A stretch of 64,000 nucleotides of DNA, taken from NCBI RefSeq assembly GCF_030815405.1, contig NZ_JAUSWX010000001.1, positions 1,178,001 to 1,242,000 on the forward strand. Direction: 5' to 3'. This DNA comes from Agromyces albus (lineage in GTDB: Bacteria > Actinomycetota > Actinomycetes > Actinomycetales > Microbacteriaceae). Made by a program: the position numbers and the translations under genes. Of the stretch, positions 40,567-61,757 are shown piece after piece (position 1 is the first letter of the stretch; each line of letters opens with the position of its first letter). Below the pieces are notes generated by a model, which saw only the letters and a list, made by a program, of their open reading frames with translations, did not search any database and was not told the origin of the DNA.

Positions 40567-42204
40567 TCAGAGCGCGACGGCGCCGCAGAGGTGCACGTCG
40601 AGCCCGAGTTCGGCGAAGAGTGCCGCCTTGGCGAGGAGCGCGCGATCGGCGGCTGCGGCATCCGGCGCATACGCCACTTGCACGTGATTCGCCTTGTGCC
40701 TGGCCATCAACTGGTCGCGGCTCACGCCGTGCAGCACCGCGTGCATGATCGGCCACTGCGGGTCGGTCGCGTCGAGGCGTCGCTGCGTCTCGGCCTCGGG
40801 CAGCTCTCGCACCGAGCCGCGGCCGAGGTCGACGTGCAGGCGGCCGTCCATCAGGAAGACGCGCGACCAGACGATCTCGCCGGGCTTCGAGACGCCCGAG
40901 AGGGTGCCGCCGCCGAGCGGGAAGAACATCGGCGGCTGGCGCATGCTGTACGACTTGTCGTAGCCGCCGTTGTGGCTCGCGGGCACCGATCCCGAGATCT
41001 CGAACACCCAGACGAACTCGCCGTCGTACTCCTCGCCCCAGCGCACGTCGTGCAGGGTCGTGGCGGGGTCGAAGCCCATGGCGTTCCAGATGCGGTTCGT
41101 GATGAGTGCGTCGACGGCGACGCCCTCGTCGACCTCGTTGAAGTGGGGGAGTGCGGCGCCGGGGTAGAGCTCCCGCTCGCCGCCGCGCGAGCGCACGGGC
41201 GGCCGCTCGACGTTGTTGAGCAGGCCCTCGGCGAGGTCGGATGCCGGAACCATGTCCTTCAGGCCCTGCTGGTACTGGATCCCGACGGCGTCGAGACCGA
41301 AGTCGTCGGAGATGCGCACGGCGGCGATGTACATCTTCAGCTGGCTCTGCACCTGGGCGCGAGTGAGCTCGGTCGCGTCATCCGTGCCGAAATGGAACGT
41401 GAGCCCTGCGTTCTCGAGCCAGGCCATCACCTCGTCGGCCTCGGCGTCGCTCACGCGCGCCATCTCGGCGAGGAGCGCGCTCTGCGAGAGGCGCTCCTTG
41501 TAGATGCCGAGCGGATTCAGCAGCTCGTCGTCGATGATCGCGTTGTACATGCCCATGCAGCCCTCGTCGAAGACGCCGATGATGGCCTTCTCGACGCGGA
41601 GCTCGTCGGCGAGTGCACGGCCGAGCGCGACCTCGGGTGCGGCGTCGTCGAGCGCGGGGAGATCGCGCACGTGGCTCAGGTCGTGCTCGATGCGCCCGGT
41701 CTCGAGCCATTCGCCGAGCTTGTCGACCGCCCAGTCGTCGGTGAAGTCCGTGCTCCAGAGCGCGGAGTGCTCGACCCCTGCCTTCGTGAGGCTCGCGGTG
41801 AGGTTCAGGAGCCCGACGAGGCCTGGGAAGTCGCCCGCCCAGTTCGCGACGACGAGGATCGGGCCGCGGTGCGTGCGAAGGCCCGCGAGCACGTGGTGGC
41901 TGTACTGCCAGACCGCTTCGACGACGACGAGCGGCGCTTCGGGCGGGAGTGTCTTGAAGACCTCGATGCCGGCGCGCTGGCTGTCGATGAAGCCGTGCCC
42001 GGTGAGCTCGTCGACGCCGTGACCGCGTTCGACCGACCAGCCGAGTCGTTCGACCGCCGCGGCGAAGTCGGCTTCGAGGTGCTCCTGCGTCGGCCAGCAC
42101 TTCGTGTTGGCACTCAGCCTGAGGTCGCCGGATGCCACGGTGTAGACGGTGCCGGGCGCGGCGGTGCGCGGATGGCGCCTGGCCGGAAGGGTGTACTGCA
42201 TCAT
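40567..42204 (-). CDS. L-fucose/D-arabinose-type isomerase family protein
   Basis: A 545-residue protein of the fucose/arabinose isomerase fold: DLRLSANTKCWPTQ near the N-terminus, VVEAVWQYSHHVLAGL, GVFDEGCMGMYNAII with the acidic metal ligand region, and VWVFEISGSVPASH. L-fucose isomerases also convert D-arabinose to D-ribulose because the sugars match at C2-C4. Starts ATG 42204 or 42201. The LacI-type operator at 42324-42335 lies about 120 nt upstream. No ribulokinase or fuculokinase gene is in the window, so the product's fate is unclear. Activity on this exact branch is not established. Confidence 0.8.
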   Translation of the reverse strand: MMQYTLPARRHPRTAAPGTVYTVASGDLRLSANTKCWPTQEHLEADFAAAVERLGWSVERGHGVDELTGHGFIDSQRAGIEVFKTLPPEAPLVVVEAVWQYSHHVLAGLRTHRGPILVVANWAGDFPGLVGLLNLTASLTKAGVEHSALWSTDFTDDWAVDKLGEWLETGRIEHDLSHVRDLPALDDAAPEVALGRALADELRVEKAIIGVFDEGCMGMYNAIIDDELLNPLGIYKERLSQSALLAEMARVSDAEADEVMAWLENAGLTFHFGTDDATELTRAQVQSQLKMYIAAVRISDDFGLDAVGIQYQQGLKDMVPASDLAEGLLNNVERPPVRSRGGERELYPGAALPHFNEVDEGVAVDALITNRIWNAMGFDPATTLHDVRWGEEYDGEFVWVFEISGSVPASHNGGYDKSYSMRQPPMFFPLGGGTLSGVSKPGEIVWSRVFLMDGRLHVDLGRGSVRELPEAETQRRLDATDPQWPIMHAVLHGVSRDQLMARHKANHVQVAYAPDAAAADRALLAKAALFAELGLDVHLCGAVAL

Positions 42205-42323
42205 GGTTCTCTTCCTACTCGTTCTCGGTCGTGTTCATGGGTCCATCTGGCGATGTCGACTCCCAGCACTGCCCGTACGGCCATTCGCGATCCTCCTCGA
42301 TCCGGATAGAGGACAGCGTTGCA

Positions 42324-42335
42324 GAAATCGATTTC
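42324..42335. promoter_or_regulatory. LacI-type operator, site 1
   Basis: GAAATCGATTTC, a perfect palindrome, lies between the isomerase gene and the lacI stop. On the minus strand it falls between TTGCGC and a weak AACGCT, 17 nt apart, so it could block the isomerase promoter. Confidence 0.7.
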
Positions 42336-42377
42336 ACGCGCAAGCAGGTTGCCTGATCGCGTTCCGCGTGCGCGGCG

Positions 42378-43376
42378 TCACCGCACGTGCGCGAGGGCGT
42401 TCTCGGGATTGGTCGACACCTCGTTGCGCAGCACGACCGTGCGCGGCGGCCGGTCGTCGCCGTTGATGCGGTCGAGCAGCATCGTTGCGGCGGTTCTGCC
42501 CATGGCGCGCGCGGGCACGTGCACGACGGTCATGCCCGCGGGAGCGAGGGCGGCGAACGGAAGGTCGCCGAACGCGGCGAAGCCGAACGTCTCGGGCGAG
42601 CTCCCGGCGCCGTAGAGCACCTGGAGGGCGCCAACGCTCATGAGGTTGTTCGCAACGAAGACGGCGTCGGGCGGCTCGGGCAGCGCCAGGAGTCGCTGCA
42701 TCGCCGCGCGCCCGCCGTCGACGCGGTAGTTCGCGTGCTCGAGGAGCGCCTCGTCGGGCGTGAGGCCGGCCGAGCGCACGGCGTCGCGCCATCCGTCGGC
42801 TCGGTGCTGCGCCGTCTCGACGTCACTCGGGCCTGTGATGCAGCCGATCCGCTTGAAGCCGTGCGTGACGAGGGCGCTCGTGGCGGCCATGCCGCCGGCA
42901 CGGTTGTCGACCATGACCGCATCGATGTCGAGTCCGTGCGGGCCGCGGTCGACGGCGACGACGGGTCGGGACCGGGAGAGCAGCGGATGCAGGTCGCTGT
43001 CGTCGCTCGCCGCCGCGATGATGATGCCGGCCATATTCTCGAGCACCGCGATGTCGATGTACTGCGCTTCCTTCGCGACGTCCTCGTCGGAGTTGCAGAG
43101 CACGACGGAGAACCCGGCTGAGCGGGCGGCATCCTCGACGCCCCGGGCGAGCGAGGTGAAGAACGGGTTCTCGATGTCGGGGATGATGAGTGCGATGATC
43201 TCGCTGTGCCGACGCCGGAGGGTGCGCGCCGTGCGGTTCGGCGTGTAGGCGAGCTGGGCCGCGGCCGCGCGCACGAGGACGGCCTTCTCCTCCGACACGT
43301 TGTTGCTGTTGAAGACGCGCGAGACCGTCGCGGGCGAAACGCCGGCGAGCTTTGCGACCTCGTAGATGGTGGCCAC
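42378..43376 (-). CDS. LacI family transcriptional regulator
   Basis: A 332-residue repressor with the LacI helix-turn-helix (IYEVAKLAGVSPATVSRVFN, residues 4-23), hinge (TARTLRRRHSE) and periplasmic-binding-type sugar domain (IALIIPDIENPFF, VFVANNLMSVGALQ). GTG 43376 has GGAGGA ahead. Members bind sites of the form TGAAANCGNTTNCA, so the GAAATCGATTTC sites at 42324, 43452, 49121 and 56933 are its likely targets. It lies between the isomerase and the GH172 gene, which supports control of this sugar regulon. The effector, perhaps D-arabinose or L-fucose, is inferred. Confidence 0.92.
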   Translation of the reverse strand: MATIYEVAKLAGVSPATVSRVFNSNNVSEEKAVLVRAAAAQLAYTPNRTARTLRRRHSEIIALIIPDIENPFFTSLARGVEDAARSAGFSVVLCNSDEDVAKEAQYIDIAVLENMAGIIIAAASDDSDLHPLLSRSRPVVAVDRGPHGLDIDAVMVDNRAGGMAATSALVTHGFKRIGCITGPSDVETAQHRADGWRDAVRSAGLTPDEALLEHANYRVDGGRAAMQRLLALPEPPDAVFVANNLMSVGALQVLYGAGSSPETFGFAAFGDLPFAALAPAGMTVVHVPARAMGRTAATMLLDRINGDDRPPRTVVLRNEVSTNPENALAHVR

Positions 43377-43407: not shown

Positions 43408-43463
43408 TTGACAGTCTCGGACGCGATCCCTACAGTGAACACTACTTGCCTGAAATCGATTCC
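43408..43463 (+). promoter_or_regulatory. GH172 promoter and LacI-type operator, site 2
   Basis: TTGACA (43408-43413), 17 nt, TACAGT (43431-43436) is a near-consensus promoter. GAAATCGATTCC (43452-43463), one base from the perfect palindrome, lies just after the expected start site (about 43443), where a repressor would block elongation. GTG of GH172 is at 43527. Confidence 0.75.
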
Positions 43464-43526
43464 AACAGTGCAGCAGGACGGTGTCGTCGAAAGCTCCTCC
43501 CTCCGCTGCGCGGAGAGAGACCCACT

Positions 43527-44645
43527 GTGCACCACTCCAACATCGCCGGCCTCCGCCGGGCGCAGACCCGCTCGATCAGCCCTGAGAACTTCGACGGCGC
43601 GATCGGCGGTGGCGGCCGCGCCGTCGACGGAACCGGCGCCGCTGCCTCGCGCGACCTCGGCGTCGGCTGGAAGGTCTCGCCGAGTGTCGTCGTGAAGGCG
43701 GGCCAGACCTTCGACCTCGCGCGCATCGGGGGCGCCGGCAGGATCACGCACATCTGGATCACCACCCACAAGGACAACTGGCGCACGCTCGTGCTGCGGG
43801 CCTACTGGGACGGCGCAGAGGAACCGGCCGTCGAAGTGCCCTATGGCGACTTCTTCTGCCATGGCTGGGGCGAGTTCGCGCAGGTCTCCTCGCAGGTGAT
43901 CGCCGCCAACCCCTTCGGCGGCTTCAACTCCTACTGGCCGATGCCGTTTCGCACCGGCGCACGACTCACGATCGAGAACACCTCGGTCGTCGACGTCGTC
44001 GTGTACTACCAGGTGACGTACGAGCAGGGCGGCGACGTCGCCGACGATGGCTACTTCCACGCGCAGTGGCGCCGCAGCAACGTGCTCGCGCACGCGGCGA
44101 CCCACACGATCCTCGAGGGCATCGAAGGGCGCGGCCACTACGTCGGCACCTATCTCGCCTGGGGTGTGAACAGCAACGGCTGGTGGGGCGAGGGCGAGCT
44201 CAAGTTCTACCTCGACGCCGACGAAGAGTACCCGACCATCTGCGGCACCGGCACTGAGGACTACTTCGGCGGCGCCTGGAACTTCGACGTACCGGGCCGC
44301 GGGTACACCGAATTCACCACGCCCTACCTCGGCATGCCGCAGGTGATCAGACCCGACGGACTCTACGTGAGCCAGCAGCGCTTCGGGATGTACCGCTGGC
44401 ACCTGCCCGACCCCATCGTCTTCCACGAGCGGATGTCGAAGGTCGATGTGCAGGCGCTCGGCTGGCGCAGCGGCTGGCGCTACCTGCCCCTCCAGGACGA
44501 CATCGCCTCGACCGCCGTCTTCTACCTCGACCGGCCGGTCGCGAACCGTCCGCCCGCGCCCGACGCCGATGCGATGGAGATCCACCTCGGCAGCGCGCCC
44601 GTTCCCGACCTCGGCTCCGAGCCGCCGCGGGCCCCGCAGGGCTGA
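43527..44645 (+). CDS. GH172 (DUF2961) glycoside hydrolase
   Basis: A 372-residue cytosolic-looking protein (no signal peptide) of DUF2961, now GH172. Motifs include ITHIWITTHKDNWRTLVLRA, the jelly-roll strand WPMPFRTGARLTIEN and CGTGTEDYFGGAWNF with conserved acidic residues. Characterised GH172 enzymes form trimers or hexamers and act on difructose anhydrides or as exo-alpha-D-arabinofuranosidases on mycobacterial arabinan. With a DUF4185 gene under the same operator, arabinofuranoside cleavage is the better guess. GTG 43527 has GGAGAG ahead. Confidence 0.88.
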   Translation: MHHSNIAGLRRAQTRSISPENFDGAIGGGGRAVDGTGAAASRDLGVGWKVSPSVVVKAGQTFDLARIGGAGRITHIWITTHKDNWRTLVLRAYWDGAEEPAVEVPYGDFFCHGWGEFAQVSSQVIAANPFGGFNSYWPMPFRTGARLTIENTSVVDVVVYYQVTYEQGGDVADDGYFHAQWRRSNVLAHAATHTILEGIEGRGHYVGTYLAWGVNSNGWWGEGELKFYLDADEEYPTICGTGTEDYFGGAWNFDVPGRGYTEFTTPYLGMPQVIRPDGLYVSQQRFGMYRWHLPDPIVFHERMSKVDVQALGWRSGWRYLPLQDDIASTAVFYLDRPVANRPPAPDADAMEIHLGSAPVPDLGSEPPRAPQG

Positions 44646-44702: not shown

Positions 44703-45524
44703 CTACTTCATGCCAGCGAGGCGCACGCCGTTCACGATGTAGCGCTGGAACACGAGCAGGAGCGCGATCGTCGGCAGTGCGGCGAGGGTCGAGCCGGCCA
44801 TGAGCAGTCCCCACTCGTTGCCTCGGTCGGAGCGGAAGTTGCCGAGGTACTGCATGATCTGGAACAGGTTCGGGTCCTGGATCGTGAGGATCGGCCAGAC
44901 ATAGGCGTTCCAGTACGCGAGGTACGACGCGACGCCGACGACCACGAACGGCCCCTGCGACTGCGGCAGGAAGATCGTCGTGAAGATCTTCCAGCGGCTC
45001 GCACCGTCGATGAGCGCGGCCTCCTCGATCGCGACGGGCATGTTCAGGTAGAACTGCCGGATGAAGAACATCTGGGCGGCCGCGGCGACTCCGGGGATGA
45101 TGAGCACGGCGAGCGTGTTCAGCATGCCGAGGTTCGAGACCACGACGAACGACGTGAGCAGGATCGCCATCGCCGGGATGAACATCGGCGTGATGCAGTA
45201 CAGCCACCAGAAGCGCTTGCCACGGAAGTCGAGGCGCGCGAACGCGTAGGCCGCGAACGAGTTCACGGTGAGGCTCAGCACTGTGAAGATGACGGCGCCG
45301 AGGAACGTGACGCCCATCGCCATCAGGAACTGCGGGTCCTGCAGGATGCTCGCGTAGTTGTCGACGATCCAGATCTCGGGGAAGAACTGGAAGGGCGAGC
45401 GGAGCACCTCGTTCTTGCCCTTGAAGCCGGCGATGAGCATCCAGGCCAGCGGGAGGAGGGCGGAGATCGCGATGAGCGCGACGAGCGCGAGCCGCGCGGC
45501 GCGGAAGAGGGGAGTGGAGGTCAT
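44703..45524 (-). CDS. ABC sugar permease, MalG type
   Basis: A 273-residue inner-membrane subunit with six helices. The cytosolic EAA loop reads VAIEEAALIDGASRWKIFTT followed by IFLPQSQGP, the contact for the ATPase. It follows the MalF-type permease by 9 nt and is the last gene of the operon starting with the DUF4185 gene. It belongs to the CUT1 (carbohydrate uptake 1) group, which imports oligosaccharides. No ATPase is coded in the operon. Confidence 0.93.
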   Translation of the reverse strand: MTSTPLFRAARLALVALIAISALLPLAWMLIAGFKGKNEVLRSPFQFFPEIWIVDNYASILQDPQFLMAMGVTFLGAVIFTVLSLTVNSFAAYAFARLDFRGKRFWWLYCITPMFIPAMAILLTSFVVVSNLGMLNTLAVLIIPGVAAAAQMFFIRQFYLNMPVAIEEAALIDGASRWKIFTTIFLPQSQGPFVVVGVASYLAYWNAYVWPILTIQDPNLFQIMQYLGNFRSDRGNEWGLLMAGSTLAALPTIALLLVFQRYIVNGVRLAGMK

Positions 45525-45533: not shown

Positions 45534-46499
45534 TTATCCGTCGATCGCCTTGTCGGACTTCACGAGCCGGAAGATGAGCGCGCTGATCGTGCCGAGCACG
45601 ACGAACAGCAGGAGCGCGGCGGTGATCGAGAAGCTCGTTGCGTACGGGGTCGGGTCTTTGAACTGGTTGAAGATGAAGAGGTTCGGCGTCATCGTCGCGT
45701 TCACGGGGCCGCCCTGGGTCATGACGAGCGGCAGCTCGAACTGCTGGAGCGCGCCGACGAATCCCGTGACGAGCAGGAAGAGCAGCACGTTCTTCATGAG
45801 CGGGATCGTGATGTAGAAGGTCTTCTGGAGGAATCGAGCACCTTCGAGTTCTGCCGCCTCGTAGTAGCTCTCGGGGATGTCGAGCATGCCGGCGAGCATG
45901 ATGAGTGCCGTGATACCCGTGACGAGCCAGATCGCCGGCACCGCGATCGCGGGCAGGGCGAGGAGCGGATCCGAGATGAAGGCGAACGGCCCCGTGCCGA
46001 CGAGGCTGAGCAGCCAGTTGATGAGGCCGCCGTCGGCGCGGTACATGAAGACGAAGACGATCGATGCGATGACCGCCGACACCACGGTCGGCACGTACAC
46101 GGTCGTCTTCATGAATCCGGCGAGCCGCCGGCCGAGGCCCTTGATGACGCTCGCGATGACGAAGCCGAAGATCATCTGCAGTGGAACGACGATGAGCGCG
46201 AACCGGAGGCCGACGCCGATCGCGTTCCAGAACCCCGGGCTCTCGAGCACGTACTGGTAGAACTGCATGCCGACGAACACCGGCTCCTCGTAGAAGCTGA
46301 CCTCGAAGGCGCTGAGGTAGATCGAGTACACGAGCGGCCAGAAGACGAAGATGGCGAGCAGCACCACCATCGGCGCGAGCATCAGGTAGGCGGTGCGGTT
46401 GTCACGGAGGTGGGAACCGCGTCGGCGCCGCGTCAGGTTGACGACGGCGCTCGCCTCGGCGGTCACGACGGTGTCGCGAAGGGTCTGCAGGGAGGTCAT
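45534..46499 (-). CDS. ABC sugar permease, MalF type
   Basis: A 321-residue partner of the MalG-type permease. A long cytosolic N-terminus precedes the first helix (YLMLAPMVVLLAIFVFWPLV). The EAA loop is PESYYEAAELEGARFLQKTF. ATG 46499 is chosen for its GGAG site; earlier in-frame ATG 46532 adds a Pro/Arg stretch. The 72-nt gap to the binding-protein gene holds a stable hairpin that may lower permease expression relative to the binding protein. Confidence 0.92.
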   Translation of the reverse strand: MTSLQTLRDTVVTAEASAVVNLTRRRRGSHLRDNRTAYLMLAPMVVLLAIFVFWPLVYSIYLSAFEVSFYEEPVFVGMQFYQYVLESPGFWNAIGVGLRFALIVVPLQMIFGFVIASVIKGLGRRLAGFMKTTVYVPTVVSAVIASIVFVFMYRADGGLINWLLSLVGTGPFAFISDPLLALPAIAVPAIWLVTGITALIMLAGMLDIPESYYEAAELEGARFLQKTFYITIPLMKNVLLFLLVTGFVGALQQFELPLVMTQGGPVNATMTPNLFIFNQFKDPTPYATSFSITAALLLFVVLGTISALIFRLVKSDKAIDG

Positions 46500-46524
46500 A
46501 TCGGTGCTCCGTTCGGGCCGGGGC

Positions 46525-46555
46525 GGCGGCATCCGTCTCGTGAACGGATGCCGCC
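46525..46555 (-). promoter_or_regulatory. Intercistronic hairpin between binding-protein and permease genes
   Basis: GGCGGCATCCGT and its exact complement around the loop CTCGTGA give a 12-bp stem. Such hairpins after binding-protein genes often cause partial termination or protect the upstream mRNA. Confidence 0.6.
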
Positions 46556-46571: not shown

Positions 46572-47909
46572 CTACTGGGGGTTGGTGCCGGCGAGCTTCT
46601 GCTTCTCGATCACGCCGTCGATGGCGACCTGCGCCTCCTCGAACGCGGCGGCCGCATCACCGCCCTTCATGGCCTTCTCGAGCGCGGTGCCGAAGGCGAC
46701 GCTGATGTCCCACGGGTAGGCGGGCTCCGCCTTGGCATACGGGAGGATCGTCTCCGAGACGACGGTCAGGAACGGGTTGCCGGATGCCTCGGGGTCGGCG
46801 GCAAGCGCCTCGCCCACGCTGATGCGGGCGGGGTACTTCGAGTACCCGCTCGCCTTGAAGAAGTCGACCATGCGCTCCGGCTCTCCAGCGACGAGCCACG
46901 AGATGAAGTCGGCGGCCCCCTCCTTCGCCTTCGACTTGGCGTCGACCGTGAGGGTCCAGCCGCCGAGCGTCGAGGTGGGCGTCGTCTGGTCGCCGTCGGC
47001 CGAGGGGAAGGCGGCGACCGCGGTGTTCGCGAGCACCTCCTTCCAGTCGGGGTTGCCGGAGAGCTGTCCGATCGCCCATGAACCGCACGCGCTCATCGCG
47101 ACCGTGCCCTCGCCGTAGAACGAGCAATCCGCGTACGGATACGTCGCCTCCTGCGGCATGAGCTTCTCCTGGTAGAGCGTGCCGTAGAAGTCGGCGAGCT
47201 CGAGGTAGGCGGGGTCGGTGGCGTTCGCCTCCGACCAGTCCTCGGCGATCGGCAGGTCGCCGGCGGCGTTGTACTGGAGGCCCCAGCTCGACCAGGCGAG
47301 GTCGAGCGCGACCTGGCCGATGTTCATGCCGTAGACGCCGTCCTTGGTGAGCGCGCGCGACGCCTCGACGAGCTCGGCCCACGAGGTCGGGGGAGTGTCC
47401 GGGTCGAGCCCGGCCGCCTCGAAGAGGTCGGTGCGGTAGAACAGCACCGTCGACGGCTCCACGAGCAGCGGGTAGGCGTAGTAGCCGCCCTCCGAGGTGA
47501 CGAAGTCCTGCACGTTCGGCTGGATGTCGTCGAACGCCTCGGCGTCCATGAGCTCACCGAGCTCGGCGAAGTGGCCGTTCGCGACGCCCGGCTTGATGTT
47601 GCCGTAGCTCGTCGTGCGTACGTCGGGTTGCTTTCCCGCGGCTTGCGCGGCCTTGAGCTTCTGGTCCCACGTGTCGGCGGGCACGACCTGGAGCTTGACG
47701 ACCACGTCGTCTTGCGAGGCGTTGTACTCCTCGACCTGCTCCTTGAACCAGGCCTGCTGGTAGTCCTCGAACTTCTGCTGCCAGAAGGTGACGACGGACT
47801 TGCCGTCCTCCGTCGCCGGCGCGCTGTTCGCACCGCACCCGGTGAGGGCGAGTACAGCGGCGGTGAGCACGGCGGCCGGTGCTGCCCAGCGCTTTCGACT
47901 CTTGTGCAT
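46572..47909 (-). CDS. ABC sugar-binding lipoprotein (CUT1 type)
   Basis: A 445-residue solute-binding lipoprotein. KSRKRWAAPAAVLTAAVLAL leads to the lipobox LTGC, so the mature protein is lipid-anchored outside the membrane. VTFWQQKFEDYQQAWFKEQV and the Trp/Tyr-rich region later are typical of carbohydrate-binding proteins of family 1. AAGGAGGAAC lies ahead of ATG 47909. It follows the DUF4185 gene by 44 nt and precedes two permeases. The ligand would be an arabinan-derived oligosaccharide if the neighbouring enzymes are arabinanases (inference). Confidence 0.92.
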   Translation of the reverse strand: MHKSRKRWAAPAAVLTAAVLALTGCGANSAPATEDGKSVVTFWQQKFEDYQQAWFKEQVEEYNASQDDVVVKLQVVPADTWDQKLKAAQAAGKQPDVRTTSYGNIKPGVANGHFAELGELMDAEAFDDIQPNVQDFVTSEGGYYAYPLLVEPSTVLFYRTDLFEAAGLDPDTPPTSWAELVEASRALTKDGVYGMNIGQVALDLAWSSWGLQYNAAGDLPIAEDWSEANATDPAYLELADFYGTLYQEKLMPQEATYPYADCSFYGEGTVAMSACGSWAIGQLSGNPDWKEVLANTAVAAFPSADGDQTTPTSTLGGWTLTVDAKSKAKEGAADFISWLVAGEPERMVDFFKASGYSKYPARISVGEALAADPEASGNPFLTVVSETILPYAKAEPAYPWDISVAFGTALEKAMKGGDAAAAFEEAQVAIDGVIEKQKLAGTNPQ

Positions 47910-49075: not shown

Positions 49076-49103
49076 GTGCTCCCTCTCGTCGGCGAGTGAA
49101 TAG

Positions 49104-53654: not shown

Positions 53655-53683
53655 TTGACATTTAGACATCGGATGTTTATGCT
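53655..53683 (+). promoter_or_regulatory. Fuconate dehydratase promoter with GntR-type operator in its spacer
   Basis: TTGACA (53655-53660), 17 nt, TATGCT (53678-53683) is nearly ideal. AGACATCGGATGTTT (53664-53678) occupies the spacer. Similar palindromes lie at 56872-56886 and 61784-61798, all next to genes of this block and its GntR/FCD regulator. Confidence 0.8.
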
Positions 53684-53706: not shown

Positions 53707-55008
53707 ATGAACACAATCGTCAGCGTTGACACCCGAGACATCCGCTTCCCGACTTCCCTCGAGCTCGACGGCTCCGATGCGATGAACCCCGATCCCGACT
53801 ACTCGGCCGCGTACGTCACCATTCGAACGGATGCCGCAGACGGGCATGAGGGCCACGCGTTCGTGTTCACAATCGGCCGGGGCAACGACGTGCAGGTCGC
53901 CGCCATCGAGGCGTTGCGCGAACACGTGCGCGGACTCGACGTCGAAGCCGCCCTCGCCGACATGGGCGCGACCTGGCGCCTGCTCACCCACGACTCGCAG
54001 TTGCGCTGGCTCGGGCCCGAGAAGGGCGTCATGCACATGGCGATCGGCGCGGTCGTCAACGCGCTCTGGGACCTGAAGGCGAAGCGCGCGGGGCTGCCGC
54101 TCTGGCAGCTGCTCGCGAGCCTCACGTCCGAAGAGCTCGTGAGCCTCGTCGACTTCCGCTACCTCAGCGACGCGATCACGCCCGATGAGGCGCTCGAGCT
54201 GTTTCGCGCCTCCGAGCCCGGGCGCGCCGAGCGCGCCGCCGAACTCCTCGCGACGGGGTATCCGGCGTACACCACCACGCCCGGTTGGCTCGGGTACTCC
54301 GACGAGAAGCTCGACCGGCTCTGTCGCGAGGCCGTGGCCGACGGATTCCCGCAGATCAAGCTCAAGGTCGGCGCGAACCTCGCCGACGACGTGCGCCGGC
54401 TCGGCATCGCCCGCGCCGCCGTCGGTCCGGACTACCCGATCGCGATCGACGCCAACCAGCGCTGGGACGTGGGCCCGGCGATCGAGTGGATCCGCGCCCT
54501 CGCCGAGTTCGACCCCGCCTGGGTCGAGGAGCCGACGAGTCCCGACGACGTCCTCGGACACGCCGCGATCGCCCGCGGCATCGCCCCGATCCGGGTCGCG
54601 ACCGGCGAGCACGTGCAGAACCGCATCGTCTTCAAGCAACTGCTGCAAGCGGGCGGCATGGACGTCATGCAGATCGACGCCACTCGCGTCGGAGGCGTCA
54701 ACGAGAACATCGCCAACCTGCTGCTCGCGGCGAAGTTCGGCGTGCCGGTGTGCCCGCACGCGGGCGGCGTCGGCCTCTGCGAAGCCGTGCAGCACCTGTC
54801 GATGTTCGACTACGTCGCGCTTTCGGGCACGATGGAGGGCCGCATGATCGAGTTCGTCGACCACCTCCACGAGCACTTCGTCACGCCCGTCGTGATCGAG
54901 CGAGGCCGTTACCTCGCGCCGACCGCTCCGGGCGCCGGCACCGAGATGCTCGCGGCATCCGTCGACGACTACACCTGGCGCGGTCGTCACCGCGCAGTGC
55001 CCGTATGA
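53707..55008 (+). CDS. L-fuconate dehydratase, enolase superfamily
   Basis: A 433-residue enzyme that dehydrates L-fuconate to 2-keto-3-deoxy-L-fuconate. [20 protein letters not shown] and [17 protein letters not shown] are diagnostic for FucD. Catalytic Lys-x-Lys is QIKLKVG (K218, K220). Metal ligands are in [21 protein letters not shown] and ATGEHVQNR, and the His base is near [20 protein letters not shown]. Such enzymes also accept D-arabinonate. AAAGGA precedes ATG 53707. It heads the plus-strand operon FucD-AKR-lactonase, with 4-nt overlaps between all three. Confidence 0.95.
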
Positions 55009-55973
55009 ACGCGGGCGTGGTGACCGCCGAGCGCCTCGGTCCGCTCGGCTACGGCGCCGCGTCGATCGGCAACCTCTACCGCGAAGTGACCGATGAGCAG
55101 TCGGATGCCGCGCTCGAAGCGGCGTGGCACGGCGGCATCCGGTACTTCGACACCGCGCCCCACTACGGCCTCGGCCTCTCCGAGCACCGCCTCGGCACCT
55201 TCCTCCGCTCGCGCCCGCGTGAGGAGTACGTGATCTCCACGAAGGTCGGCCGCATGCTCGACCCGAATCCCGACTTCAACGGCGGCGACGACCTCGCGTT
55301 CGACTTCGCCGTGCCGAACACCACCGTGCGCCGCTTCGACCCGAGCGAATCGGGTGTTCGCCGCAGTATCGAGGAATCGCTCGAGCGGCTCGGCCTCGAC
55401 CGCATCGACATCGCCTACCTCCACGACCCCGACGTCTACGACCTCGATCGCGGCATCGCCGAGGGGCTGCCGGCGCTCGTGAGGCTCCGCGACGAGGGCG
55501 TCGTCGGCGCCATAGGCATCGGCACGAACGACGCGGATGCCGCGGCGCGGGCCGTGCGCGAGGGCGACGTCGACCTCGTGATGATCGCCGGCCGCTACAC
55601 GCTCCTCGAGCAGCCCGCGCTCGACGAGCTCCTCCCACTCTGCGAGCGGCGCGGCGTCGGCGTGGTCGTCGCCGCGGTGTTCAATTCGGGGCTCCTCGCC
55701 ACCGATACCCCCGACGAGAACGCGCGCTACAACTACGGCCCGGTTCCCGACGACGTGCTGGGCCATGCCCGGCGACTCGCCGACGCGTGTCGCGCGGCCG
55801 GCGTCTCGCTGCCCGAGGCCGCGATGCAGTATCCGCTGCAGCACCCCGCGGTGCGCTCGGTCGTCGCCGGTTCCGCGCGAGCGGCCGACATCCGCCAGAA
55901 CATCGCACGCGTGCACGCCGCCCTCCCAGCCGGCTTCTGGGACGGCTTGAGGTCTGCGGGGCTGATCCCGTGA
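55005..55973 (+). CDS. Aldo/keto reductase, probable L-fucose (D-threo-aldose) dehydrogenase
   Basis: A 322-residue AKR barrel with the catalytic tetrad in [14 protein letters not shown] (Asp, Tyr), [10 protein letters not shown] (Lys) and [10 protein letters not shown] (His). [18 protein letters not shown] is typical of the fucose/galactose dehydrogenase branch, which oxidises L-fucose, and often D-arabinose, to the lactone with NAD(P). ATG 55005 overlaps the FucD stop by 4 nt. It is the first enzymatic step of the oxidative path coded here. Confidence 0.9.
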
Positions 55974-56884
55974 GCGGGGCGACGCGCACGATCGACGCGC
56001 ACGTGCACCTCTGGAGCCGTGCCGCCGGCCGATACGAGTGGATTCCGCGCGGCGGCCCGCTCGATCGCGACTTCAGCGCCGCTGAGGCGCGCCTCGAGCT
56101 CGACGTCGCCGGCATCGACGCGGCCATCCTCGTGCAAGCCGAGGACTCGCTCGCCGACACGTGGTTCCTGCTCGGGGTGGCCCGCGAACACGACTGGATC
56201 GCCGGAGTCGTCGGATGGATTCCGCTCGACCACCCCGAAGCGGCGCGCGCGGCGCTCGACGCGCTCGTGGGAGAGCCGGCCCTCCGCGGCATCCGTCACC
56301 TCGTGCACGATGACCCCCGTGACGACTTCCTCGACCTCCCCGAGGTCCGGGCATCGCTGCGCGAAGTGGCGTCGAGAGGGCTCGCGCTCGACGTTCCCGA
56401 TGCGTGGCCACGGCATCTCGATGCCGCTGCGCGCGTCGCCCGGGCCATTCCCGAGCTGACCGTCGTGATCGACCATCTCGCCAAGCCGCCGGTGGGCAGA
56501 CCAGACTTCGACGCGTGGCGTCGGGCATTGGGGCGGGCAGCGGCCGTTCCCAACACGATCGCCAAGTTCTCGGGACTGCACCTTCCCGGTGCGCCGTTCG
56601 GCCCCGAGACCGTGCGCCCGCTGTGGGAGATCGGGCTCGACGCCTTCGGAGCCGACCGTCTGATGTACGGCGGTGATTGGCCGATGACCGTGCCGCACGG
56701 CGGGTACCAGACGACGTGGGAGGTGATGCGCGATTGTTTGTCTGAACTGGGCGAAACCGAGCGAGCTGCCGTGCTCGGCGGCACGGCGGACTCGGTCTAT
56801 CGCTCGCAAATAGTCCGACCTCTGTGGCCGCAAAGACACGAAACAGACTCAATTGCCGTTGACTATCCACTAAACATCCGATGA
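55970..56884 (+). CDS. Amidohydrolase 2 family, probable L-fuconolactonase
   Basis: A 304-residue TIM-barrel hydrolase: TIDAHVHLWS (metal His pair), LVQAEDSLADTWFLLG, VIDHLAKPP and MYGGDWPMTVPHGGY with the terminal Asp. It would open L-fucono-lactone to L-fuconate, the substrate of FucD. GTG 55970 overlaps the AKR stop by 4 nt. The stop codon lies inside a GntR-type palindrome (56872-56886), so the end of this gene doubles as control DNA for the next operon. Confidence 0.9.
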   Translation: MSGATRTIDAHVHLWSRAAGRYEWIPRGGPLDRDFSAAEARLELDVAGIDAAILVQAEDSLADTWFLLGVAREHDWIAGVVGWIPLDHPEAARAALDALVGEPALRGIRHLVHDDPRDDFLDLPEVRASLREVASRGLALDVPDAWPRHLDAAARVARAIPELTVVIDHLAKPPVGRPDFDAWRRALGRAAAVPNTIAKFSGLHLPGAPFGPETVRPLWEIGLDAFGADRLMYGGDWPMTVPHGGYQTTWEVMRDCLSELGETERAAVLGGTADSVYRSQIVRPLWPQRHETDSIAVDYPLNIR

Positions 56885-56956
56885 GTAGTACACTCGCAAT
56901 TGCTCCACAGCTTGATTGATCCACGGCTTGACGAAATCGATTTCAGGTCGTTGACT
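56872..56956 (+). promoter_or_regulatory. Dual-operator control region of the fucU-ABC operon, site 4
   Basis: AAACATCCGATGAGT (56872-56886) matches the GntR-type palindrome. GAAATCGATTTC (56933-56944) is the LacI-type operator, inside TTGACG (56928-56933), 17 nt, TTGACT (56951-56956). The 34-bp module repeats that at 49104-49137. The operon appears to answer to two regulators. Confidence 0.7.
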
Positions 56957-56990
56957 GGTCGTATCTGAATCTCAATGAAGAGAGGCACAC

Positions 56991-57431
56991 GTGTTGAGTG
57001 GAATCCACCCGATCCTCCACGGCGAGCTGCTCGCCGCGCTCGATCGACTCGGCCACGGCGATGAACTCGTCGTCGCCGACGCGAACTTCCCGGCGCACCG
57101 GGTCGGCGAGGTCGTCGTCGAAACGCCGGCACTCGCGGCCGCTGAGGTCGTCGCGGCCATCCGCACGGTCGTGCCGCTCGACGGCTACGAAGGCGCGTCC
57201 GTGCTGCTGATGGAGGCAGAGGGCGGCGAGATACTGCCGGTGCAGCACGAGCTCGTGACCGCTGCGGATGCCACGCCCGACCGCGTCGACGAGCTCGAGC
57301 GCTTCGAGTTCTACGAACGGGCCATCGGCGCACAGCTCGTCGTGCGCACAGGGGAGTTGCGGCCCTACGGCAACCTCATCCTCCGCAAGGGCGTCGTGAA
57401 CGCCTACGAGTCCCGAGGAGCGGCGCGATGA
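56991..57431 (+). CDS. fucU: RbsD/FucU family mutarotase
   Basis: A 146-residue protein that interconverts sugar anomers so the right form reaches kinases, isomerases or dehydrogenases. GIHPILHGELLAALDRLGHG, VVADANFPAHRVG and the C-terminal RPYGNLILRKGVV are FucU traits (NLILRKG fits FucU better than RbsD). GTG 56991 has AGAGG ahead. It starts the operon with the ribose-type ABC genes, and the dual operators upstream tie it to both sugar blocks. Confidence 0.88.
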   Translation: MLSGIHPILHGELLAALDRLGHGDELVVADANFPAHRVGEVVVETPALAAAEVVAAIRTVVPLDGYEGASVLLMEAEGGEILPVQHELVTAADATPDRVDELERFEFYERAIGAQLVVRTGELRPYGNLILRKGVVNAYESRGAAR

Positions 57432-58960
57432 TCCCGGCAACCACCACGACGACGGCGCTGCTCGACCTCTCGGGCGTCAGCAAGGGCTTCCCGGGAGTGC
57501 AGGCCCTCGACGATGTGCGACTCGAGCTGCGGCGCGGCGAGGTGCTCGCTCTCGTCGGCGAGAACGGTGCGGGCAAGTCGACCCTCATGAAGCTGCTCGC
57601 GGGCATCTACACGCCCGACGCCGGCACGTTCCGCCTGAACGGCGAGGAGTTCTCGATCGAAGGCCCCCGCCATGCGCAGGAGCTCGGCATCGCGATCATC
57701 CACCAGGAGTTCAACCTCATGCCCGACCTCACGGTAGCGCAGAACATCTTCATCGGGCGTGAACCGCGCTCGGGCGGCGTGTTCCTCGACGACCGGGCGC
57801 TCAATCGCAGCGCACAGGAGCTGTTCGACCGGCTCGGGCTCACGATCGATCCGGCCGAGCGCGTCGAGCACCTCACGGTGGCGCGCCAGCAGATGGTCGA
57901 GATCGCCAAGGCCCTGTCGTTCAACGCGAAGGTGCTCATCATGGATGAGCCGACGGCGGCCCTCAACGACGCCGAGGTCGAAGTGCTCTTCGAGCTCATT
58001 CAGCGATTCCGCACGCCCGACACCGGCGTGATCTACATCTCGCACCGCATGGACGAGCTCGCCCGCATCTCCGACCGCATCACCGTGCTGCGAGACGGCC
58101 GCTACATCGACACCCTCGAGACGGCGACCTCGACCGTCGGCGAGGTCATCTCCCTCATGGTCGGCCGCACGATCACGGGTGAGCAGCGCCCGGGGCAGGT
58201 GCAGCGCTCGCCCGACGTCGTGCTCAGCGTCGCGGGGCTCTCCACGAAGAAGCTGTTGAAGAACGTCGGATTCGAGTTGCACCGCGGCGAGATCCTCGGT
58301 TTCGCGGGACTCATGGGCGCCGGCCGCACCGAGCTCGCGAGGGCCATCGTCGGCGCCGATCCCATCGAGTCCGGGCGCATCACGGTCGACGGTCGCGAAG
58401 TGCAGATCGGAAATCCGGCGGAGGCCGCCCGGCTCGGCATCGGCTATCTCTCCGAAGACCGCAAGCGACTCGGCGTCGTGCTCGAACAGGATGTCGCCAC
58501 GAACATCGTGCTGAGCACCCTGCCGGCGTTCACCTCGAAGGCCGGGTTCATGCGAGACGGCGCGATCATCCGCACTGCACGCGAATTCATCGGGCGGCTC
58601 CGCATCAAGACGCCCTCGGCGAACCAGCTCGTGAAGAACCTCTCGGGCGGCAACCAGCAGAAGGTCGTCATCGCCAAGTGGCTCGCGAAGGACTGCGACA
58701 TCCTCATCTTCGATGAGCCCACTCGCGGCATCGACGTCGGCGCGAAAGACGAGATCTACGCGCTCCTCGAGGAGCTCGCGAGACAGGGCAAGTCGATCAT
58801 CATGATCTCCTCCGAGCTTCCCGAGGTGCTTCGGATGAGCCACCGCATCGCGGTCATGTGCGAAGGGCGGCTCAACGCGGTGCTCGACAACGCCGAGGCG
58901 ACCCAGGAGATCGTCATGGACTACGCAACGCGCTTCAGCGCTGAAGGAACGGTGAGTTGA
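57428..58960 (+). CDS. Sugar ABC transporter ATPase, RbsA type
   Basis: A 510-residue protein with two ATPase halves. The first has GENGAGKSTLMKLLAGIY and signature LTVARQQMVEIAKAL with MDEPTAAL; the second has a degenerate Walker A (GLMGAGRTELARAI) but a good signature LSGGNQQKVVIAKWL and FDEPTRGIDVG. This is the CUT2 group, which imports monosaccharides such as ribose, xylose or fucose. ATG 57428 overlaps the fucU stop by 4 nt. Confidence 0.94.
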   Translation: MIPATTTTTALLDLSGVSKGFPGVQALDDVRLELRRGEVLALVGENGAGKSTLMKLLAGIYTPDAGTFRLNGEEFSIEGPRHAQELGIAIIHQEFNLMPDLTVAQNIFIGREPRSGGVFLDDRALNRSAQELFDRLGLTIDPAERVEHLTVARQQMVEIAKALSFNAKVLIMDEPTAALNDAEVEVLFELIQRFRTPDTGVIYISHRMDELARISDRITVLRDGRYIDTLETATSTVGEVISLMVGRTITGEQRPGQVQRSPDVVLSVAGLSTKKLLKNVGFELHRGEILGFAGLMGAGRTELARAIVGADPIESGRITVDGREVQIGNPAEAARLGIGYLSEDRKRLGVVLEQDVATNIVLSTLPAFTSKAGFMRDGAIIRTAREFIGRLRIKTPSANQLVKNLSGGNQQKVVIAKWLAKDCDILIFDEPTRGIDVGAKDEIYALLEELARQGKSIIMISSELPEVLRMSHRIAVMCEGRLNAVLDNAEATQEIVMDYATRFSAEGTVS

Positions 58961-58961: not shown

Positions 58962-59969
58962 TTGACCACGACGGCCCCACAACAACCAGCAACCAAGGAT
59001 GCTGCGACGAGCGCCGTGCGCGCTCGGCTCCGCGGCCAGATCCAGCAGCTCCTCGCCTTCGCGAGCCTCATCGCGATCGTCGTGTTCTTCTCGATCGCCA
59101 ACGACCGATTCCTCACGTGGGCGAATGTGACCGGCATCCTGCTCGCCGCGACCGTGGTCGGCCTGCTGGCCCTCGGCACGACGTTCGTCATCATCACCGG
59201 CGGCATCGACCTGTCGATCGGCACCGGCATGACGCTGTCCGCGGTGATGACGGGCGTGTTCCTCACCTACCTGGGAATGCCGCTGTGGCTCGGCGTCATC
59301 CTCGCGATCCTGTTCGGCGGCCTGCTCGGCTTGATCAACGGCGTCAACGTCGCGGTGCTCAAGATCCCACCGTTCATCGCGACACTCGCGATGATGCTCG
59401 TCGCCGCTGGGCTCTCGCTCGTCATCTCGGGCACGGCGCCGATCTACTTCAAGGAGACGCCCGACTTCGTGCGGCTCGCGACGGGGTCGCTCATTCCCGG
59501 CATCCGGTTCCCGAACGGCGTGCTCATCTTCATCATCGTCGCGATCGTCGCGGGCGTCATCTTGAAGAAGACGCTCCTCGGGCGCTACACGTTCTCCATC
59601 GGATCGAACGAGGAGGCCACGGAGCTCTCTGGCGTGAACGTGACGAAGTGGAAGATCGCGATCTACACCTTCGCTGGCCTCTTCACCGGACTCGCCGGCG
59701 TGCTGCTCGCCTCCCGTCTGTCGTCGGCTCAGCCCGCACTGGGCATGGGCTACGAGCTCGAGGCGATCGCCGCGGTCGTGATCGGCGGCACCTCGTTGCA
59801 GGGCGGCAAGGGCTCGATCGTCGGCACCGTCATCGGCGCGCTCATCATGGCGGTGCTCACGAACGGCCTGCGCATCATGTCGATCCCGCAGGAGTGGCAG
59901 TCGGTCGCGGTCGGCGCCGTCATCCTCATCGCCGTCTACCTCGACATCCTCCGGCGGAAGAACGCCTAG
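58962..59969 (+). CDS. Sugar ABC transporter permease, RbsC type
   Basis: A 335-residue permease with about ten helices. LALGTTFVIITGGIDLSIGT and SIGSNEEATELSGVNV are typical of CUT2 permeases. The TTG at 58962 directly follows the ATPase stop; no other start gives the N-terminal TTTAPQQPA segment, and a GGAACGG lies ahead. It forms the membrane channel with the RbsA-type ATPase. Confidence 0.92.
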   Translation: MTTTAPQQPATKDAATSAVRARLRGQIQQLLAFASLIAIVVFFSIANDRFLTWANVTGILLAATVVGLLALGTTFVIITGGIDLSIGTGMTLSAVMTGVFLTYLGMPLWLGVILAILFGGLLGLINGVNVAVLKIPPFIATLAMMLVAAGLSLVISGTAPIYFKETPDFVRLATGSLIPGIRFPNGVLIFIIVAIVAGVILKKTLLGRYTFSIGSNEEATELSGVNVTKWKIAIYTFAGLFTGLAGVLLASRLSSAQPALGMGYELEAIAAVVIGGTSLQGGKGSIVGTVIGALIMAVLTNGLRIMSIPQEWQSVAVGAVILIAVYLDILRRKNA

Positions 59970-59972
59970 ACG

Positions 59973-60027: not shown

Positions 60028-61011
60028 ATGCGAAAGCGTTCATTCGGCGTCGCGGCGGGGCTCGTCACCGCTGCGCTCGTTCTCAGCGGCTGCGCCGGTG
60101 GCGGCGACGGCGGCGACGGTGCCGGCGGCGGCGACGGCGACAAGCCGTACATCGCCCTCGTCTCGAAGGGCTTCCAGCACCAGTTCTGGCAGGCCGTCAA
60201 GGAAGGCGCCGAGCAGGCTGCCGAGGAGTTCGACGTCGAGATCACCTTTGAGGGCCCTGACACCGAGGCCGACGTCGACCAGCAGTTGCAGCAGCTGCAG
60301 ACGGCACTCGACAAGGGTCCCGACGCGATCGGCTTCGCCGCGCTCGACAGCCAGGCGGCCGGTCCCTACCTGCAGCAGGCACAGGATGCCGGCATCCCCG
60401 TCATCGCGTTCGACTCGGGTGTGGACAGCGACATCCCCGTGACGACCGCCGCGACCGACAACAAGGCCGCTGCGGCAGAGGCCGCCAAGCACATGGTCGA
60501 GCTCGTCGGAGGCACGGGCAAGATCGCGCTCGTCGTGCACGACCAGACCTCGGTCACGGGCGTCGATCGTCGTGACGGTTTCGTCGAGTACATCGAGGAG
60601 AACGCACCCGACATCGAGATCGTCGACATCCAGTACGGCGGCGGCGACCAGCTGAAGTCCACCGACCTCGCCAAGGCGATCCTGCAGGCGAACCCCGACC
60701 TGAAGGGCATCTACGGCTCCAACGAGGGTTCGGCGATCGGCGTCGTCAACGCCGTCACCGAGCTCGGTCTCGAGGGCCAGCTCACCGTCATCGGCTTCGA
60801 CTCGGGCCAGGCGCAGATCGATGCGATCACCAGCGGCCTGATGGCCGGCGCGATCACGCAGAACCCGGTCGGCATCGGCTACGAGACCGTGAAGGCCGCG
60901 GTCGAGGCGCTCGACGGCAAGGAACTGCCGAAGAGCATCGACACGGGCTTCTTCTGGTACGACGAGACCAACATCGAAGACCCTGAAATCCAGGCCGTGC
61001 TCTACGAGTAG
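60028..61011 (+). CDS. Sugar-binding lipoprotein, RbsB type
   Basis: A 327-residue solute-binding protein. RKRSFGVAAGLVTAALV ends in lipobox LSGC, followed by a Gly/Asp linker. PYIALVSKGFQHQFWQAVKE and GIPVIAFDSGVDSDIPVTTA are hallmarks of the ribose/galactose-binding family. AAAGGAG lies ahead of ATG 60028. With the CUT2 ATPase and permease it imports a monosaccharide, by context L-fucose or D-arabinose. Confidence 0.94.
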   Translation: MRKRSFGVAAGLVTAALVLSGCAGGGDGGDGAGGGDGDKPYIALVSKGFQHQFWQAVKEGAEQAAEEFDVEITFEGPDTEADVDQQLQQLQTALDKGPDAIGFAALDSQAAGPYLQQAQDAGIPVIAFDSGVDSDIPVTTAATDNKAAAAEAAKHMVELVGGTGKIALVVHDQTSVTGVDRRDGFVEYIEENAPDIEIVDIQYGGGDQLKSTDLAKAILQANPDLKGIYGSNEGSAIGVVNAVTELGLEGQLTVIGFDSGQAQIDAITSGLMAGAITQNPVGIGYETVKAAVEALDGKELPKSIDTGFFWYDETNIEDPEIQAVLYE

Positions 61012-61025
61012 GACCGGATGTCGCG

Positions 61026-61056
61026 GAGGGGGTGACGCTCAGGCCGGCACCCCCTC
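61026..61056. terminator. Hairpin terminator of the ABC operon
   Basis: GAGGGGGTG (61026-61034) pairs with CACCCCCTC (61048-61056) and is followed by TGTC. It lies between the convergent binding-protein and gntR genes. Confidence 0.65.
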
Positions 61057-61085
61057 TGTCATGCCGGTACCCTCCGTGCGGATGC

Positions 61086-61757
61086 TCAGAGCGCCGAGCG
61101 GAGCCACTGCTCCACACCGCTCACGTGGGCGACCGTGAGCGCCGAGGCGAGCTCGCCGTCGCCCGTGGTGATCGCCTCGAGGATGGCGTGGTGCTCTGCG
61201 AGAGTGCGGCCGACCGCGTCCTCCTGTGTGATGCCGCGCCAGATGCGCGCTCGCACGGTGTGGCTCGACAGGGAGTCGATGAGACCCGCGAGGTAACTGT
61301 TGCCGGTGGCATCCGCGATGCCGCGGTGGAACTCGAGGTCGTGGGCGACGAGACCTTCGACGTCGGTCGCGTGGTCGACGCTCTCGATCACCTCGCGAAG
61401 GCGAGCGAGGTCGTCTTCGTCGGCGTTGCGAGCGGCCAGGGCGGATGCCGCGGGCTCGAGGATGCGACGCACGGCGAAGATCTCGAGCACCGATTGGTCG
61501 TCGTGCAGGTCGACGACGAACGACATGGCCTCGAGCAGCAGTCGCGGCTCGAGGCTCGTGACATAGGTGCCGTCGCCGCGCCGCACGTCGAGCACGCGGA
61601 TGACCTCGAGTGCCTTGACGGCTTCGCGGAGCGACGAGCGCGACAGGCCGAGGCGCTCGCTCAGCTCCTTCTCGGGAGGGAGCCGGTCGCCGGGAGCGAG
61701 CTCGCCGGCGAGGATCATCTCTTTGATGCGCAGGATCGCTTCGTCGGTGACCGCCAT
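61086..61757 (-). CDS. GntR family regulator, FCD type, of the fucose block
   Basis: A 223-residue regulator: winged helix LAPGDRLPPEKELSERLGLS, then SSLREAVKALEVIRVLDVRR, and an FCD domain with the metal-binding Asp/His pattern (VAHDLEFHRGIADATGN, ITTGD). ATG 61757 is 6 nt from TACTAT (complement 61764-61769), so the mRNA is leaderless. AGACATCAGATCTTT (61784-61798) covers its -35, pointing to self-repression and to control of the matching sites at 53664 and 56872. Confidence 0.92.
   Translation of the reverse strand: MAVTDEAILRIKEMILAGELAPGDRLPPEKELSERLGLSRSSLREAVKALEVIRVLDVRRGDGTYVTSLEPRLLLEAMSFVVDLHDDQSVLEIFAVRRILEPAASALAARNADEDDLARLREVIESVDHATDVEGLVAHDLEFHRGIADATGNSYLAGLIDSLSSHTVRARIWRGITQEDAVGRTLAEHHAILEAITTGDGELASALTVAHVSGVEQWLRSAL

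Follow-up and report, generated by a model that had tools for sequence, protein, structure and literature searches.

A predicted D-arabinan utilization locus joined to an oxidative fucose-type gene module in Agromyces albus

Comparison with described systems

The closest described system is the D-arabinan utilization locus of Microbacterium arabinogalactanolyticum, which contains GH172, GH116, four GH183, importer, isomerase and kinase genes, and in which the four GH183, GH116, GH172 and sugar-binding protein (SBP) genes were induced by D-arabinose and mycobacterial wall extract (PMC10509167). The related island analyzed here lies in a window of 64,000 nucleotides of Agromyces albus (contig NZ_JAUSWX010000001.1, positions 1,178,001 to 1,242,000). 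It shares with the M. arabinogalactanolyticum locus GH172, GH183, an ATP-binding cassette (ABC) importer with its sugar-binding protein, and the isomerase. In contrast, it has one GH183, no GH116 and no kinase; the loss of the latter two has left a scar, and the fusion to an oxidative fucose-type module, via an apparently copied promoter bearing a LacI operator, belongs to A. albus and not to the described locus. Both genera are members of the Microbacteriaceae. Thus, an earlier sequence-only reading of this DNA was mistaken in holding that no arabinan utilization locus had been described in the family, and a wholly new kind of locus was rejected on this precedent. An open-access literature search returned nothing on an Agromyces arabinan locus or a Microbacteriaceae LacI/D-arabinose operator beyond PMC10509167 and PMC10115798.

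Two other systems resemble parts of the island. Polysaccharide utilization locus PUL42 of Dysgonomonas gadei also combines GH172, DUF4185/GH183 enzymes and a predicted fucose isomerase, but it is a Bacteroidota locus, and no oxidative module is mentioned in the accessible part of PMC10115798. The Route III pathways of Herbaspirillum and Paraburkholderia share with A. albus an aldose dehydrogenase (an aldo/keto reductase, AKR, for D-arabinose in P. mimosarum), a sugar-acid dehydratase, an SDR 4-dehydrogenase and an FAH hydrolase, with pyruvate and glycolate or lactate as the products, predicted ones in the case of A. albus. The D-arabinonate dehydratase there belongs to the UxaA/GarD superfamily, whereas A. 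albus has an enolase-type FucD, and the accessible part of PMC6336799 mentions neither arabinan enzymes nor a shared LacI operator.

We consider it likely that the island is a Microbacterium-type D-arabinan locus that became joined, next to aspA, to the genus's own fucose-type module, and that D-arabinose leaves it mainly by oxidation. D-arabinan would be cut extracellularly by GH183, the oligosaccharides imported by MalFG and the binding protein, and D-arabinose released by a cytoplasmic GH172, as its orthology suggests. AKR, lactonase, FucD, SDR and FAH would then oxidize D-arabinose to pyruvate and glycolate, and the same enzymes would convert L-fucose to pyruvate and lactate. LacI would repress four promoters (isomerase, GH172/LacI, GH183-importer and FucU-monosaccharide importer), and GntR would control the oxidative enzyme genes through a second operator. 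The promoter at FucU would be a near-copy of that of GH183, gained within the lineage, and the kinase that stands beside the isomerase in relatives would have been deleted together with GH116. Under this reading, carbon from mycobacterial D-arabinan would reach central metabolism without a kinase. It would also be a case of natural pathway rewiring in which a likely donor promoter, the captured copy, the scar of a deleted gene and relatives at further stages of loss are all readable. Of the sequence-only interpretation, the substrate (D-arabinan), the shared operator and the oxidative gene set stood, and the lack of precedent did not; it had missed the kinase and GH116 loss with its scar, the GntR-type operator, the probable copied promoter and the wide distribution of the fucose module in the genus.

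The genome is one contig of 4.27 Mb, labeled G000 among the 60 Agromyces genomes compared. Gene families were assigned by Pfam and NCBIfam profile matches and by PDB sequence matches, which bore out the gene content named earlier. From left to right, the order was isomerase, LacI, GH172, two permeases and a binding protein, GH183, aspA and FAH1-SDR-FAH2 (minus strand), followed on the plus strand by FucD-AKR-lactonase, FucU and ATPase-permease-binding protein, with a GntR/FCD regulator (minus strand) closing the island:

40567..42204, minus strand: Iso, L-fucose/D-arabinose isomerase-like, 545 amino acids (Fucose_iso_C 27.9 bits, just under the gathering threshold of 29.3)
42251..42284, minus strand: deletion scar between operator and Iso, where the beginning of the FGGY kinase survives (MAVRAVLGVDI); matches the A. 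subbeticus kinase start and leader
42323..42336, unstranded: LacI-type operator copy 1, now before Iso; matches the A. subbeticus kinase promoter
42378..43376, minus strand: LacI-family regulator (PF00356, PF00532, PF13377)
43451..43464, unstranded: LacI-type operator copy 2, between LacI and GH172, one arm imperfect
43506..44645, plus strand: GH172, predicted exo-alpha-D-arabinofuranosidase of ExoMA1 type (PF11175; no signal peptide by eye)
44703..45524, minus strand: ABC permease, MalG/UgpE type (PF00528; NCBIfam below cut-offs)
45534..46532, minus strand: ABC permease, MalF/UgpA type (PF00528; NCBIfam below cut-offs)
46572..47909, minus strand: extracellular sugar-binding protein SBP_bac_1, lipoprotein by eye (PF01547)
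47954..49075, minus strand: GH183 (DUF4185), predicted endo-D-arabinanase (PF13810, 291 bits; lipoprotein signal by eye)
49073..49142, minus strand: GH183 promoter segment resembled by the FucU promoter segment (repeat I2; local score 59)
49120..49133, unstranded: LacI-type operator copy 3, before GH183-SBP-malF-malG
49426..50889, plus strand: aspartate ammonia-lyase, aspA (NF008909, 709.5 bits)
50929..51810, minus strand: FAH-family hydrolase 1, FAH1 (PF01557)
51915..52673, minus strand: SDR dehydrogenase, predicted 2-keto-3-deoxy-fuconate/pentonate 4-dehydrogenase (PF13561; assigned by context)
52710..53594, minus strand: FAH-family hydrolase 2, FAH2, diketo-deoxy sugar acid hydrolase type (191.5 bits to 8gsr)
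53589..53603, unstranded: putative GntR-type operator, FAH2 side (3 mismatches)
53664..53678, unstranded: putative GntR-type operator, FucD promoter (the only exact ACATCSGATGT in the genome)
53707..55008, plus strand: L-fuconate dehydratase, FucD, enolase superfamily (672.6 bits to 2hne)
55005..55973, plus strand: AKR, predicted L-fucose/D-arabinose 1-dehydrogenase (PF00248; 141 bits to 9w6y)
55973..56884, plus strand: amidohydrolase, predicted fucono/arabinono-lactonase (NF052480, 152.4 bits, cut-off 400)
56872..56886, unstranded: putative GntR-type operator, FucU promoter (2 mismatches)
56922..56993, plus strand: promoter segment resembling the GH183 promoter, the putative captured copy (absent from the A. 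subbeticus FucU promoter)
56932..56945, unstranded: LacI-type operator copy 4, before the FucU-importer operon
56991..57431, plus strand: FucU/RbsD-type sugar mutarotase (PF05025, 113 bits; L-fucose mutarotase model 89 bits, cut-off 141)
57428..58960, plus strand: monosaccharide ABC ATPase, RbsA type (family profiles)
58962..59969, plus strand: monosaccharide ABC permease, RbsC type (family profiles)
60028..61011, plus strand: monosaccharide-binding protein, RbsB type (family profiles)
61086..61766, minus strand: GntR/FCD regulator, presumed by context to regulate the oxidative module (PF00392, PF07729)
61784..61798, unstranded: putative GntR-type operator before GntR (3 mismatches)

Arabinan enzymes and the LacI-type operator

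The closest solved relative of the window GH172 was ExoMA1 (8ic8; 709 bits over query residues 11-376, near full length), compared to 124 bits for the difructose-anhydride enzyme alphaFFase1 (7v1v) and 120 bits for the solved Dysgonomonas PUL42 protein (8ah3). ExoMA1 is the exo-alpha-D-arabinofuranosidase of M. arabinogalactanolyticum, in which Asn253 blocks fructose and has Gly299 as its counterpart in alphaFFase1 (PMC10509167). This Asn is kept in the window GH172, where GGAWNF aligned to chain position 253 (counted by hand). D-arabinan specificity, as proposed earlier, therefore appears well supported at the sequence level, and by score the enzyme did not group with the difructose-anhydride enzymes, the grouping that had been named as contrary to this assignment. 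It is extremely improbable that the GH172 acts on fructans or difructose anhydrides. The family does include alphaFFase1 and the genome holds a second, diverged GH172, but the two bit scores, on which fructan specificity was rejected, the retained Asn and the presence of GH183 in the same locus all argue for D-arabinan. The second GH172 (locus L124, G000:C1:3020000-3036000) was 40% identical to the island copy and had LacI- and permease-like genes nearby. An adjoining open reading frame bears a WINDPHG motif, which we take to be GH32-like, and this is perhaps a fructan locus.

The window GH183, the sole DUF4185 protein in the whole genome, gave 191 bits to EndoMA1 (8hhv), and its residues D, D and E aligned to D33, D51 and E243 (counted by hand), the essential acids of EndoMA1 (PMC10509167). 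Its earlier placement in the arabinanase family thus holds. It was 55% identical to the importer-adjacent type of a named locus (L008:18496-19518, 157 bits to EndoMA1) and 38% identical to the EndoMA1-like gene of the same locus, which scored 386 bits. By these identities, the window GH183 resembles the importer-adjacent type of Microbacterium loci more closely than the EndoMA1 type. GH172, GH183 and an ABC importer thus stand together, as in the Microbacterium-type D-arabinan locus.

The sequence GAAATCGATTYC was found at exactly four sites in the 4.27-Mb genome, all within the island, and the reversed-pattern control gave none. The operator TGAAATCGATTTCA had four window matches at up to 3 mismatches, a number attained in 0 of 100 shuffles. 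When 2 mismatches to the operator 14-mer were allowed, two further sites appeared outside the island. Chance occurrence was rejected on these results. The four shared operator copies noted earlier were therefore borne out.

Named loci (L-numbers) are the best 80 of 585 confirmed GH172 loci; searches covered the stretch around each locus, some of these stretches being short. Those from Microbacterium share the operator and the isomerase order with the window, and their LacI is related to that of A. albus (58-63%). With one position of one arm left free, the operator core was present in 36 of the 37 named loci whose LacI reaches 45% identity, lying ahead of the LacI gene in 30, and in 11 of the 43 that have no such LacI. 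The core GAAATCGATTTC should be of use in locating D-arabinan regulons of Actinomycetota. Where LacI and GH172 genes diverge (named loci L008-L087), the site between them had one imperfect position in 25 of 33 cases, was perfect in 4 and absent in 4; the imperfect intergenic site perhaps reflects tuned autoregulation. The same core was also seen where the nearby LacI reaches no more than 31-38% identity and other genes of the enolase family lie close (L111, L112 and L113; G001, G046 and G053), so that the core may serve more than one LacI.

The oxidative module and the probable copied promoter at FucU

Aldose dehydrogenase, lactonase, dehydratase, SDR and FAH genes stand together in the window, as expected for the Route III L-fucose pathway. 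FucD gave 672.6 bits to the solved L-fuconate dehydratase 2hne, AKR 141 bits to L-galactose dehydrogenase 9w6y, and FAH2 191.5 bits to L-2,4-diketo-3-deoxyrhamnonate hydrolase 8gsr. The lactonase (L-fucono-1,5-lactonase model NF052480) and the SDR (NCBIfam L-fucose dehydrogenase, 144.6 bits) scored below their cut-offs of 400 and 300, respectively, and the PDB matches of the SDR were unspecific oxidoreductases; it could also be a sugar 1-dehydrogenase instead of a 4-dehydrogenase. The complete oxidative path read from the letters alone is thus present as a full gene set, in which the SDR, AKR and lactonase roles are assigned by family and context. D-arabinose is a plausible substrate for such enzymes: the L-fuconate dehydratases of Xanthomonas and of humans are cited as enzymes that accept D-arabinonate, the D-arabinose dehydrogenase of P. 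mimosarum is an AKR, and the conversion of D-arabinose-derived D-2-keto-3-deoxypentonate (D-KDP) to pyruvate and glycolate is established chemistry (PMC6336799).

As a fucose-type module, the oxidative half is common in Agromyces: FucD of at least 76% identity was found in 34 of the 60 genus genomes. Besides A. albus and the other genomes examined separately (G000, G002, G048, G057 and G014), 20 of the 34 modules were examined, a set that leaves aside G037, G039, G059, G007, G018, G020, G016, G033 and G051. The aspA gene between the two halves, which the sequence-only reading did not mention, adjoins the fucose-type module in 18 of the 20, for no apparent reason. An aspA of 69% identity was also seen near the isomerase of a Cryobacterium locus (L021).

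A second palindrome, AAACATCSGATGTTT, had four window sites at up to 3 mismatches (0 of 100 shuffles). Two lie at the FAH2/FucD divergent promoter, one before FucU and one before GntR, and the exact form ACATCSGATGT occurs once in the genome, at FucD. At up to 2 mismatches, the site preceded FucD in 19 of the 20 other genus modules; a FucU match was present in 14 of these modules, 9 of which had the site at FucU. We infer that the GntR regulator binds these sites. Two further FucD-like paralogues of A. albus (L122, 61%; L123, 59%) each adjoin a GntR of 45% identity, and L123 has GH2- and melibiase-type neighbors.

The FucU and GH183 promoters were found to share 36 nt at 89% identity (repeat I2) within a longer alignment of approximately 70 bp. 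The local score of 59 was not reached in any of 2000 flank shuffles (maximum 41), and the maximum over 903 other window pieces was 26. The FucU promoters of G048 and G002 scored 77 and 56, respectively, against the window GH183 promoter. Other promoter pairs of the set scored 21-37, leaving aside FucU orthologues among themselves and the window Iso and A. subbeticus kinase promoters, which are the same promoter (score 140). In the FucU promoters of G000, G002 and G048, the TTGAC and the operator are identical, and 5 of the next 6 bases vary. A TTGAC abutting the operator was found in 1 of 124 site orientations of the named loci (L025), and the likeness of the two promoters is therefore unlikely to reflect a generic layout. 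In A. subbeticus, the FucU promoter has no segment resembling the GH183 promoter and no exact-core LacI site, and such a site was found in 0 of the 20 other fucose modules. Most simply, this lineage would have gained a copy of the GH183 promoter ahead of FucU; that copying went in this direction is suggested by other FucU regions, which have no LacI sites.

These findings also bear on whether the four operators are unrelated to the island LacI, the FucU site belonging to another LacI-family regulator. The core near the distant LacI genes of G001, G046 and G053 and in the 11 named loci without a close LacI would fit that view. Nevertheless, the island contains all four sites of this genome, grouped about a single LacI gene, and the one at FucU sits in the near-copy of the GH183 promoter, which makes such a regulator very improbable.

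Loss of the kinase and the probable fate of D-arabinose

Iso had no match among PDB sequences at E <= 0.1. Its close homologues are labeled fucose isomerase, several of them with PF02952/PF07881 (best 120 of 8000). In A. subbeticus (DSM 16689, L035), kinase and GH116 genes lie between LacI and the isomerase, and the frequent order in named loci is isomerase, GH116, kinase, operator, LacI, operator, GH172, with L021 among the rearranged ones. Of the kinase gene, the window keeps the leader and the first 11 codons (42251-42284), which continue directly into the isomerase leader. These findings indicate that the kinase and GH116 were deleted in the A. albus lineage, leaving a scar before Iso. No kinase orthologue (at least 61%) was found in the A. 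albus genome, and GH116 had no match there at E <= 1e-10. Among the 60 genus genomes, Iso was present in 16, a kinase orthologue (61-100%) in 11, all within those 16, and GH116 in 10.

Two relatives, G048 and G002, have island proteins 88-100% identical to those of the window. Neither has GH172, GH183 or the oligosaccharide importer at the locus (GH183 was searched genome-wide only in G000), and GH172 was absent from both genomes, of which G048 is 92% complete and G002 is in approximately 110 contigs. G048 keeps a 43-bp piece of GH183 at 97.7% identity and approximately 35-40 kinase codons; G002 keeps no kinase codons, and the operator at that position is gone too. Since the breakpoints differ among species, the losses were separate or stepwise. 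Both retain LacI, Iso and the FucU operator despite the missing arabinan block. Synonymous and nonsynonymous codon differences from the window were 52 and 17 (G048) and 46 and 15 (G002) for Iso, and 33 and 3 (G048) and 44 and 6 (G002) for LacI, with frames intact, suggesting that Iso is under apparent purifying selection without the kinase.

ExoMA1-type GH172 (E<1e-150) was found in 12 of the 60 genomes, and a thirteenth had only a distant match. Of the 12, only G000 and G057 have the arabinan locus adjoining the fucose-type module; the best FucD is on another contig or far off in 8, and G004 and G025 have no FucD orthologue. Among the 34 genomes with FucD, an exact-core LacI site lies within 5 kb of it in G000, G002, G048 and G014. 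Such a site is near FucD in 4 of the 5 kinase-less Iso genomes, three of which are close relatives; a hypergeometric value of 0.0027 for this association ignores kinship and was not used as evidence.

Since the kinase is missing, D-arabinose most likely leaves mainly by oxidation. In an alternative that we regard as possible but improbable, two neighbors serve separate substrates: a shrinking D-arabinan locus, in which the isomerase works with another kinase, lies beside an L-fucose-only module, and the FucU operator lets D-arabinose share the importer and mutarotase but not the enzymes. The wide distribution of the fucose-type module, mostly unlinked to GH172, and the apparent selection on Iso favor this account. 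It is opposed by the deletion of the dedicated kinase with no close copy in the genome, whose four FGGY matches are led by GlpK (779 bits) and an XylB-like protein below cut-off, and by the LacI-type site kept at the importer of the two relatives whose locus has no arabinan enzymes.

Several observations weigh against an exit mainly by oxidation, and the first three also favor separate substrates. The oxidative enzyme promoters, on both the FucD and FAH2 sides, carry the GntR-type site instead of the LacI-type operator. Paraburkholderia mimosarum has separate D-arabinose and L-fucose clusters with no cross-use (PMC6336799). Nor is a missing kinase restricted to loci that carry the captured operator: among the named loci, Iso of at least 60% was found in 31, and the kinase (at least 45%) accompanied it in 25; the stretches searched for the other six (L012, L013, L024, L029, L031 and L041) show neither kinase nor FucD. 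An enolase-type fuconate dehydratase acting on D-arabinonate also epimerizes the intermediate to D-ribonate (PMC6336799). Oxidation alone would not account for an Iso retained without a kinase; this isomerase may now be served by another kinase or make the LacI effector. In G004, Iso and GH172 occur without any kinase or FucD orthologue, and in G014 a PfkB kinase accompanies operator, isomerase and FucD. Upstream of oxidation, the absence of GH116 implies that beta-capped D-arabinan would be digested only in part. The window GH183 is by position of the type of MIAR_33320, an M. arabinogalactanolyticum GH183 that gave no soluble expression and whose activity was untested (PMC10509167), so that its endo-activity is a prediction.

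More tentatively still, in a sequence of events that we regard as rather unlikely, the change would have begun at the FucU promoter. The near-copy of the GH183 promoter, with its LacI operator before the fucose-type importer, would have given D-arabinose a way out by oxidation, after which the cell could do without the isomerase-kinase branch. Loss of the kinase would then have followed by separate or stepwise deletions (11 codons, approximately 35-40 and none left in three related species), the isomerase being retained to make D-ribulose as the LacI inducer and not as a catabolic intermediate.

A general rule that no kinase means an oxidative module was rejected on G004, G014 and the six kinase-less named loci. 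Isomerase, kinase, GH116 and LacI occurred all together in 17 of the named loci, and FucD (above 50%) in 0 of the 80 stretches. L012, L013 and L041 (Microbacterium psychrotolerans, M. yannicii and M. timonense, respectively) have isomerase, GH116 and LacI, with no kinase of at least 45% in the stretch searched. The G014 locus (L108, G014:C1:1084000-1103900) holds operator, LacI, isomerase, FucD, FucU, importer, PfkB kinase and transaldolase-type genes, and no GH172. Single in-frame stops were seen in the matches to GH172 in G012, G022 and G023 and to Iso in G025, possibly reflecting locus decay or an effect of the matched extent.

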